DNA of 64,000 nucleotides from Candidatus Pacearchaeota archaeon (lineage in GTDB: Archaea > Nanobdellota > Nanobdellia > Pacearchaeales > DTIR01), in NCBI GenBank assembly GCA_018303805.1, contig JAGVXL010000001.1:369528-433527 (forward strand), read 5' to 3'. The position numbers and the translations under genes were made by a program. How positions within the stretch are numbered: position 1 is the first letter of the stretch; each line of letters starts with the position of its first letter. Shown here in pieces: positions 49,981 through 53,100 of this stretch. A model generated the notes under the pieces. It searched no databases. It was not told the DNA's origin and worked only from the letters and a program-made list of their open reading frames with translations.

Positions 49981-50055
49981 CGTCCCTGGCAGGATTTGAA
50001 CCTGCAACCTACAGCTTAGGGGGCTGCCGCGCTATCCAAGTTGCGCCACAGGGAC
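49981..50055 (-). tRNA. tRNA-Arg(CCT)
   Basis: GTCCCTG-TG-GCGC AACTTGGATA GCGC-G-GCAGC CCCCTAA GCTGT-AGGTT-GCAGG TTCAAAT CCTGC-CAGGGAC-G. Confidence 0.8.
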
Positions 50056-51027
50056 ATTATTCTTCAACCATGATTGATACTTTAAAAAATGTTTGGGATT
50101 GCTTGAGCCTATCTCTCTCATCCATTTTGTAACTTGTATGCTGCCTTTTAAAATCAATTCATATTCTCTAAATCTAACCTTAAAGTTATTAGCTAGAAGT
50201 TGTTTATTTAACTGAGCCAGCAAAAATGGCGATTTCATTGATATTGTAATAATGGGGTAAGGATTTCCAGAGGGAGTTTTATCTAAATAAAAAGATCCAT
50301 CGGTATCAAAAATTCCCCTTATAACATACTTAATTTTATTCCAATCATTAGCAAGGCTATCTTTTATTCTCAGATTTACTTTTTTGCCTATAGGGAATTC
50401 TAATTCTTTATTCATAAAAAGAATTAATTGTTTATGATAGCACAATATTTCCATCCCTTTACAGTCATTCTTATACTTAATTGCAACTTTTTTATTAAAC
50501 AATTTTTTAATAATCTCTTTCAAAAATAGTAAATAGGCTTTGTCTAATTCGGAATGACCGCTTATACCAATCAGCCAAATTCTCTTTTTATAGGCATAAG
50601 ACAAAGAACTTAACCATCCATCCCCTAATAAAGCTCCATAAAATTCTAAAAATAAGGGGTCTTCTATATCTATTCTGAGATTATTTTTTGCTTTTTCTTC
50701 CCTGATTAATGCACTAATCATAGCTCCTTTTAATTGTCTTTTCTTAATCTCTTTGATACCATATTTTTGAACTAATACTCTATAAGTTTCTTGCCCTCCT
50801 TTAATCTGCCCCCAGTTATCTGGTCTTTCATCAATTATTTCTAAATTGAGATTTGATGGTATAATCTCCCGGGGGACATATCTTTTAGGGTTATGTAACC
50901 ACTTGTCTAATGTTGAAAAAGGAATACCTAACTTTTGGGATAATTGGCTTAATGTTTCTACTTTGTTTTTTTGTTTTAAATAACCAAACAATCTCATTCT
51001 CGAAGTTTTTGATAATAAGATTCTCAT
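50032..51027 (-). CDS. LAGLIDADG homing endonuclease with N-terminal HTH
   Basis: EFYGALLGDGWLS and IRGIFDTDGSFYL motifs; HTH LSQLSQKLGIPFSTLDKWL; C-terminus VPVAQLG* read from tRNA-Arg. Confidence 0.88.
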   Translation of the reverse strand: MRILLSKTSRMRLFGYLKQKNKVETLSQLSQKLGIPFSTLDKWLHNPKRYVPREIIPSNLNLEIIDERPDNWGQIKGGQETYRVLVQKYGIKEIKKRQLKGAMISALIREEKAKNNLRIDIEDPLFLEFYGALLGDGWLSSLSYAYKKRIWLIGISGHSELDKAYLLFLKEIIKKLFNKKVAIKYKNDCKGMEILCYHKQLILFMNKELEFPIGKKVNLRIKDSLANDWNKIKYVIRGIFDTDGSFYLDKTPSGNPYPIITISMKSPFLLAQLNKQLLANNFKVRFREYELILKGSIQVTKWMREIGSSNPKHFLKYQSWLKNNVPVAQLG

Positions 51028-51872: not shown

Positions 51873-51886
51873 TTTTTTGTGTTAAG

Positions 51887-52033
51887 TGCGGGAGATAGGA
51901 ATCGAACCTATGCAGGCACTAAGCCAACAGCTTTCTGATGGTATTAAAGTTTTTCTTTGCCGAGCATTTCTTTTCTCTGAAAAGAAATGCTCTCTCTTGA
52001 GGCTGTCCCGTTTGGCCGCTCCGGCACTCCCGC
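51887..52033 (-). tRNA. tRNA-Leu(CAA) with 63-nt intron (51933-51995) at 37/38
   Basis: GCGGGAG acceptor and type II arm near-identical to tRNA-Leu(GAG) at 54878; ACAGC-CTCAAG^A-GCTGT after splicing. Confidence 0.88.
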
Positions 52034-52086: not shown

Positions 52087-52653
52087 TCATTTTTTATTGT
52101 TCTCTTGCGAGGTGTCAAAGAACATTATTCTCGGGTCTGCAATTGCGCTTAAAGACGCGCTTATTTTTTTCAAGTCTGACAATTTTGTTTTGATTATCTC
52201 AAGATGGTATGCTTCCTGCCTTTTTATAAACTGGAACAGTTTTTTACAGCGCTTATTGCTTGTCTGTTTTAACAGATTTTCATAAAAAAGGGTGTCTTGC
52301 TTTTCAAGCTCTACAGCAAGATTAAGGATGTTTATATCCCCCATAATGCTCCTTATGCTTTCATTAAATTTCCTTTCTTTCCTGCCAGGAACAAATTTTA
52401 GCTTAAATTTAGATATCTCCTGCAATTGTATCTTGTCTGTTTCCTTCAGTTTCAGAATCTCATTTTTCAGCAGTTCAAGATGCCTTTTTTCAGAATTCGC
52501 AAGGAAAAGCAGGACTTCCTTGCCTTCCGGGTTCAGCACCTTGGCAGAATTCCTGGAATAAGTCCTGAATCTGTTTAATTCAAACAATTGTGCCTTCTTT
52601 AAAAGCAATATTAATTTATCCTTGCCCTCGACTTCACTGCCCATAATAAACAA
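52087..52653 (-). CDS. Ferritin/rubrerythrin-like protein
   Basis: QLFELNRFRTYSRNS, NSEKRHLELL, AVELEKQDTLFYENLL, KRQEAYHLEII Glu/His helices. Confidence 0.65.
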   Translation of the reverse strand: MFIMGSEVEGKDKLILLLKKAQLFELNRFRTYSRNSAKVLNPEGKEVLLFLANSEKRHLELLKNEILKLKETDKIQLQEISKFKLKFVPGRKERKFNESIRSIMGDINILNLAVELEKQDTLFYENLLKQTSNKRCKKLFQFIKRQEAYHLEIIKTKLSDLKKISASLSAIADPRIMFFDTSQENNKK

Positions 52654-52732
52654 GTGTTTAATCCTATATAAAAATTTAACGACAAGGATAAAAATTACTT
52701 CTGGAAATTGCTGCCTGGTTAAAAAAAGAAAG

Positions 52733-52834
52733 GGCAGAACAAGTTAGTGTGAATTCCAGAGGAATTCAATTCAGCAATGTCCGAAGACAAGTGATGCCGA
52801 AGCATCGCGCTGAAAAACACTAATTCCTTCTGCC
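52733..52834 (-). ncRNA. Multi-branched structured ncRNA candidate
   Basis: Perfect nested helices 52733-39/52828-34, 52744-50/52817-23, 52770-75/52809-14, two cUUCGg hairpins on minus, 7-bp triloop hairpin 52751-67; TATA CTTAAATATAG upstream and T-tract downstream on minus. Confidence 0.65.
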
Positions 52835-52930
52835 TTGTTTTTCAAATGCCTTTGCTATATTTAAGTTTTATTATGCCCTAAAGATGTTGTTTAGGGTTAA
52901 ATTTAAAAACTATTGTTTTCTGCCTTTGAT

Positions 52931-53041
52931 GAAGACGGCCATAGTAAGCAGGAAACACCTCTTCCCGTCAGATCAGAGAAGTTAAGCTGCCTACGTTTTA
53001 GGTTGTACTCTCTAACGAGGGGAATCCTAAAAGCTGTCTTC
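52931..53041 (+). rRNA. 5S ribosomal RNA
   Basis: GACGGCCATAGTAAGCAGGAAACACC, CAGAGAAGTTAAGC, helix I GAAGACGGC/GCTGTCTTC. Confidence 0.92.
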
Positions 53042-53100
53042 GCTTTTTATCTATGTTTCTTGACAAATAAAATTTTAAACTGCATTTCAGTCTTATTCAT

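Follow-up and report, generated by a model that had tools for sequence, protein, structure and literature searches.

The window, by which we mean the whole 64,000-nt stretch of DNA analyzed here, carries on its minus strand a predicted noncoding RNA (ncRNA) gene at positions 52721-52836, made up of a folded element (52836-52732) and a U-rich 3' end (52731-52721). A divergent 5S rRNA gene lies on one side, at 52931-53042 of the plus strand (Rfam RF00001, 68.7 bits). On the other side are a ferritin-like gene (Rubrerythrin/Ferritin_2) at 52087-52653 (-) and, beyond it, a tRNA-Leu(CAA) gene with a 63-nt intron at 51886-52033 (-), which was assigned by ARAGORN with intron search and had been overlooked by the default tRNA scan. 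A LAGLIDADG-type open reading frame (ORF) at 50032-51027 (-) overlaps with its end the 5' end of a tRNA-Arg(CCT) gene; in genome G139 an ORF of similar appearance (L040, 592-1344 (-)) overlaps tRNA-Leu(CAA). The structured element is free of overlapping ORFs of 50 aa or more, and the ncRNA is a single-copy feature of the 575-kb genome.

All five helices that an earlier note had described for the element are present in the sequence. Read on the minus strand, a 7-bp outer stem joins GGCAGAA (52828-52834) to UUCUGCC (52733-52739), and a 7-bp second stem joins UUAGUGU (52817-52823) to ACACUAA (52744-52750); both 3' arms were assigned from sequence and covariation. Between these stems is a conserved internal loop, with GGAA as its 5' strand (52824-52827; consensus GRGKAA before UC) and CUUG as its 3' strand (52740-52743; consensus CUUGUN, but UCCUUU in most of family f4). 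A 6-bp inner stem, UUCAGC (52809-52814) with GCUGAA (52770-52775), bounds apical hairpin 1, GAUGC-UUCG-GCAUC (52793-52806), and the accessory hairpin 2, UGUC-UUCG-GACA (52778-52789), both of which close on cUUCGg tetraloops on the minus strand, as the note had said. Hairpin 3, also accessory, ends in a triloop, GAAUUCC-UCU-GGAAUUC (52751-52767); like the 3' arm of the inner stem, it was assigned from sequence and fold. The minus-strand fold has an energy of -43.3 kcal/mol (z = -4.8) and the plus-strand fold a z score of -7.1, with none of 200 shuffles as good in either case; the isolated element, 52836-52732, gives z = -6.0.

Among relatives, a search at the DNA level brought up one clear homologue (G001; E = 6.6e-10, 73% identity), in the other genome of the window's family, which belongs to another genus; this copy likewise adjoins 5S and Rpp21. 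All main helices are kept in the alignment of the two, and the outer, second, and apical stems each contain compensatory changes. A model built from this pair only (R1) found three more genomes (G132, G037, and G139, with E = 1.4e-11, 1.2e-9, and 4.8e-8, respectively) and G184 at E = 1.4e-3. The resulting six-sequence core model (R2) found another seven (G048, G142, G117, G012, G146, G116, and G025), and scans of 5S loci added four members of family f4 (G015, G023, G019, and G027) together with G038. The model E-values are approximate, and sequences used for training necessarily match. In all there are 17 homologues from three families of the same archaeal order, 18 genomes with the window; the named records among them are Pacearchaeota. 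A third model (R3), run across the order, recovered 17 of the 18 members. Detection stands at 18 of the 211 genomes searched in the order; the genome search applies a strict first filter and overlooks divergent copies (G038 is one), which means that failure to find the ncRNA in a genome does not prove that it is lacking there.

An exact pattern of the core, run against the GTDB collection, matched three Pacearchaeota assemblies and archaeon BMS3Abin17 (G139, G142, G037, and G048), as well as a single bacterial sequence that we judged to be a chance match. A scan for the structure only gave 24 distinct matches in real loci, mostly members, compared to 1 in shuffled sequence. Phylum- and class-wide model searches gave convincing matches nowhere beyond this order, and the phage records and viral contigs searched held no match to the ncRNA. 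Weak or single-pattern matches at L042-L045, L052, L055 (Spirochaetes), L059, L066, L139, L140, and L145 were set aside as chance on the basis of sequence or score, most being AT-rich or coding-looking.

The earlier note had proposed covariation in relatives at the 5S locus as a check, and there the pairing proved to be conserved. With 6 sequences, 97% of cells are paired and 6 pairs are changed on both sides; with 17 aligned cores, 96.0% of cells are standard pairs and both-sided changes occur in 16 of 22 pairs. The covariation score for the 17 cores is 0.463, compared to 0.224 for shuffles (none of 500 reached the observed value) and 0.06-0.12 for slid structures, in which just 31-44% of cells pair. 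Accessory apical hairpins were trimmed from the alignments (A4 and A6), and in A6 the G146 sequence lacks one loop base. By helix, the outer stem has 98.3% of its cells paired and both-sided changes in 6 of 7 pairs, and the second stem 97.1% and 5 of the 6 pairs counted. Apical hairpin 1 is 100% paired, with both-sided changes in 4 of 5 pairs, among the 12 members that have it.

The conserved core is the basal part of the molecule, i.e., the outer stem, the internal loop, and the second stem. The KAAUC of the 5' loop strand is almost invariant: among the 17 aligned members, columns A14, U16, and U64 of the internal-loop region never vary, and A15, C17, and G58 hardly do. The loop does differ between families f8/f1 and most f4 members. 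The apical part ranges from 19 to 71 nt and from a single hairpin (G048) to three (the window and G132). A CAG/CUG counterpart of the inner stem is found in 12 of 17 aligned members; hairpin 2, inside the inner stem, is common to the window and G001 and absent in short members, in which hairpin 3 is not conserved either. The multi-branched architecture emphasized in the note is thus present in the window, but the apex that carries it is the least conserved part, and the UUCG hairpins are variable decorations.

Because the fold of the plus strand is no worse than that of the minus strand, energy cannot by itself fix the direction of transcription; the minus strand is fixed by the promoter, the U tract, and the pattern of G-U against A-C pairs in relatives. 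A TATA box, CTTAAATATAG, lies at 52855-52865 (-), and the TTAAAT within it starts 28 nt before the first core base; the note had put the box about 27 nt upstream. Every one of the 18 members has a TATA-like box 26-37 nt upstream of the core; 16 of these fall within a fixed 10-nt interval, compared to 2.8 on average and 8 at most in 2000 shuffles. The U-rich terminator tract that the note had placed after the outer stem is TTTCTTTTTTT, at 52731-52721 (-), and most members have U-rich tails directly after that stem or within ~15 nt of it; G038 has an extra terminator-like hairpin. In the basal stems of the 18 members, counted on natural, untrimmed sequences, 228 of 234 cells pair when read as the minus strand and 209 when read as its antisense; G-U combinations number 22 and A-C combinations 3.

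The ncRNA usually sits between divergent 5S rRNA and tRNA-Leu genes, in an order that, with variation, runs RpoN and Rpp21, 5S, ncRNA, tRNA-Leu, a PIN gene, tRNA-Arg(CCT), and tRNA-Gly. The window has this order plus the inserted ferritin-like gene, the intron in tRNA-Leu(CAA), and the LAGLIDADG ORF; in none of the other 17 members does the ferritin-like gene have a match close to the ncRNA. The neighboring 5S rRNA has a loop E of the AGUAGU / GCCAAA or GCGAAG type in G038, G117, G116, and G048 and of the CUGUACU / GGGAA type in most other members. In G146 the ncRNA lies on a different contig, away from both 5S and tRNA-Leu. The distance from 5S to tRNA-Leu is 219-265 nt in three members with both genes resolved, compared to 53-153 nt to the divergent tRNA-Leu in 22 nonmember genomes in which the ncRNA was not detected. 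The ncRNA therefore forms an optional unit whose place is conserved, and it is dispensable at the level of the order, since relatives keep the 5S/tRNA-Leu neighborhood without a detectable copy. Either repeated loss or a gain may lie behind this pattern.

The element matches no Rfam family at strict or lax thresholds. Rfam 15 at gathering score finds only 5S and tRNAs in the whole window; with E up to 10, a 461-nt region around the element yields just 5S and a sub-threshold SNORD74 match outside it. The homologous loci gave no matches other than 5S, tRNA, and, in archaeon BMS3Abin17, a distant RT-16 RNA (L152, 570-778 (+), 90.3 bits), ~2.4 kb from 5S. The view that the element is not tRNA, 5S, SRP, or RNase P RNA holds up throughout: ARAGORN places no tRNA or tmRNA gene at the locus, the Rfam 5S match is the neighboring gene, and the two other RNAs map to separate places in the genome, RNase P RNA to C1:51005-51320 (95.8 bits) and SRP RNA to C1:136282-136543 (E = 7.6e-17, below the family cut-off). 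A box C/D sRNA was rejected, since box C (RUGAUGA) near the 5' end is missing in all 18 members. Pairing with the anti-Shine-Dalgarno sequence through GGAGG, present in G037 and G142, was likewise rejected, since other members, the window and f4 among them, lack the motif. The accessible portions of open-licence papers on Pacearchaeota/DPANN ncRNAs or structured archaeal RNA candidates contain no prior description of it.

The TATA box, the U tract, the homologues, and the lack of an Rfam match together support the proposal that this is an unassigned minus-strand ncRNA gene with its own promoter and terminator. Mechanism left aside, the reading as a gene and as a family is close to certain. We go further more tentatively, and give slightly less than an even chance to the combined reading, in which a free-standing small structured RNA gene represents an undescribed family of Pacearchaeota-type DPANN archaea and works through a protein-docking, trans-acting ribonucleoprotein (RNP). 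On sequence comparison, the TATA box drives the minus strand, and the predicted RNA starts at the foot of the outer stem and ends in the U tract just past it, so that its 5' and 3' ends are paired. The constant part comprises the outer stem, the internal loop (5' GRGKAAUC, 3' CUUGUN or UCCUUU), and the second stem, and carries a stack of one short hairpin up to three UUCG-capped hairpins. A near-invariant loop strand beside freely covarying stems has the look of a protein or tertiary contact site, and a constant basal stem and loop under a variable apex suggest a protein docking site and an RNP that acts in trans. The RNA is thus probably protein-bound and trans-acting, a function that we infer. 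The basal stem and loop may dock a protein, with the apical hairpins stabilizing or accessory, and the small RNP could serve as a scaffold or a decoy for an RNA-binding protein that belongs to the transcription or translation apparatus. Patchy presence (18 of 211 genomes) argues against a housekeeping role, and the loop difference between f8/f1 and most f4 members weakens the case for a single fixed protein site. A bolder version, which we regard as doubtful, would make the ncRNA the center of a small RNP that is specific to DPANN and whose regulatory role has no known parallel in other archaea; it might, for instance, regulate transcription or translation in the way of 6S or 7SK, and the whole would have been gained or lost in one piece between 5S rRNA and tRNA-Leu.

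Other functions have to be weighed against the docking model. Archaeal H/ACA RNAs have a single hairpin with a two-sided internal loop, and in an H/ACA-related pseudouridylation guide the loop would be the pocket for a uridine of rRNA or tRNA. The geometry here is similar: the size is that of a single hairpin, the internal loop is 6 x 6 and has a stem of 6 bp on top, and ~13-14 nt separate the loop from where the basal stem ends. We nevertheless consider such a guide unlikely, as ACA directly 3' of the basal stem occurs in none of the 18 members and ANA in one, folds inspected by eye show, above the pocket, none of the tandem sheared G-A pairs that mark a kink-turn, and neither loop strand is the same in f8/f1 as in f4, meaning that the target would have changed.

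The position beside 5S in most members would also suit a decoy or mimic, 6S-like or 5S-like, that sequesters a ribosomal or transcription protein through a loop imitating 5S helix IV/loop E. The loop strands of the window ncRNA, GGAAU / CUUGUUCU, do resemble those of loop E in the window 5S, GGGGAAUCC / GGUUGUACUC, with the order of strands exchanged, but the resemblance is short and probably due to chance. G038, G117, G116, and G048 have another form of the 5S loop E but the usual ncRNA loop, and in f4 it is the ncRNA loop that has changed and the 5S loop E that has not. Such a decoy seems improbable to us.

Base pairing through unpaired segments, as in a regulatory antisense RNA, might draw on the U-rich single-stranded segments and the KAAUC strand, which are exposed in some folds; it is quite improbable, given that nearly all bases are helical, that apical sequences are unconserved, and that no seed-like conserved single-stranded region exists besides the internal loop. 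A same-strand gene lies ~50-150 nt downstream in most members, as would be expected of a leader acting in cis, whether a riboswitch, an attenuator, or a processed spacer, but there is no conserved downstream protein gene: the next gene is the ferritin-like one in the window and tRNA-Leu in most others. The RNA moreover has its own terminal U tract, TATA-like stretches precede the next gene, and the G146 copy is away from 5S and tRNA-Leu, which together make a leader very improbable. A chance cluster of inverted repeats, or a DNA element without an RNA product, would fit the plus-strand fold, which is at least equally good, but can be dismissed almost entirely in view of the compensatory changes, the strand-specific G-U bias, and the fixed positions of TATA boxes and U tracts across 18 genomes.

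On the best reading, this is a new, lineage-specific RNA family. A new structured RNA family backed by strong covariation is an uncommon find, and our searches turned up none described for Pacearchaeota, in which, given their tiny genomes and presumed host-dependent life, each retained gene is informative. The 18 genomes with the ncRNA and the 22 short-gap genomes without it form a natural comparison for finding a partner or function. Even if that function is modest, the family is defined well enough for RNA annotation libraries.

Several known RNAs share features with this one. Y RNAs, which are bound by Ro60, resemble it in their paired ends, basal stem with conserved internal loop, variable apex, and U tail; a Y RNA was nonetheless rejected, as the ncRNA has no Rfam match and the Ro60 partner (TROVE, PF05731) was found in none of the 18 member genomes, many of them incomplete. 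Archaeal box H/ACA sRNAs are similar-sized single hairpins in which a two-sided internal loop sits on top of a short basal stem; the ncRNA differs from them in lacking ACA (ANA in 1 of 18) and a visible kink-turn and in having loop strands that vary by family. 5S rRNA is a genomic neighbor of similar length with a short internal-loop resemblance in loop E, but its helix layout is different and the resemblance is not kept across members. The bacterial structured-RNA candidates of PMC6429828 and PMC11109978, as the available parts of those papers present them, are likewise conserved, intergenic, and found by comparison, whereas the ncRNA is archaeal and without a counterpart in Rfam 15. SRP and RNase P RNAs, finally, are also stable structured archaeal RNAs, and the gene for Rpp21 lies near the ncRNA.
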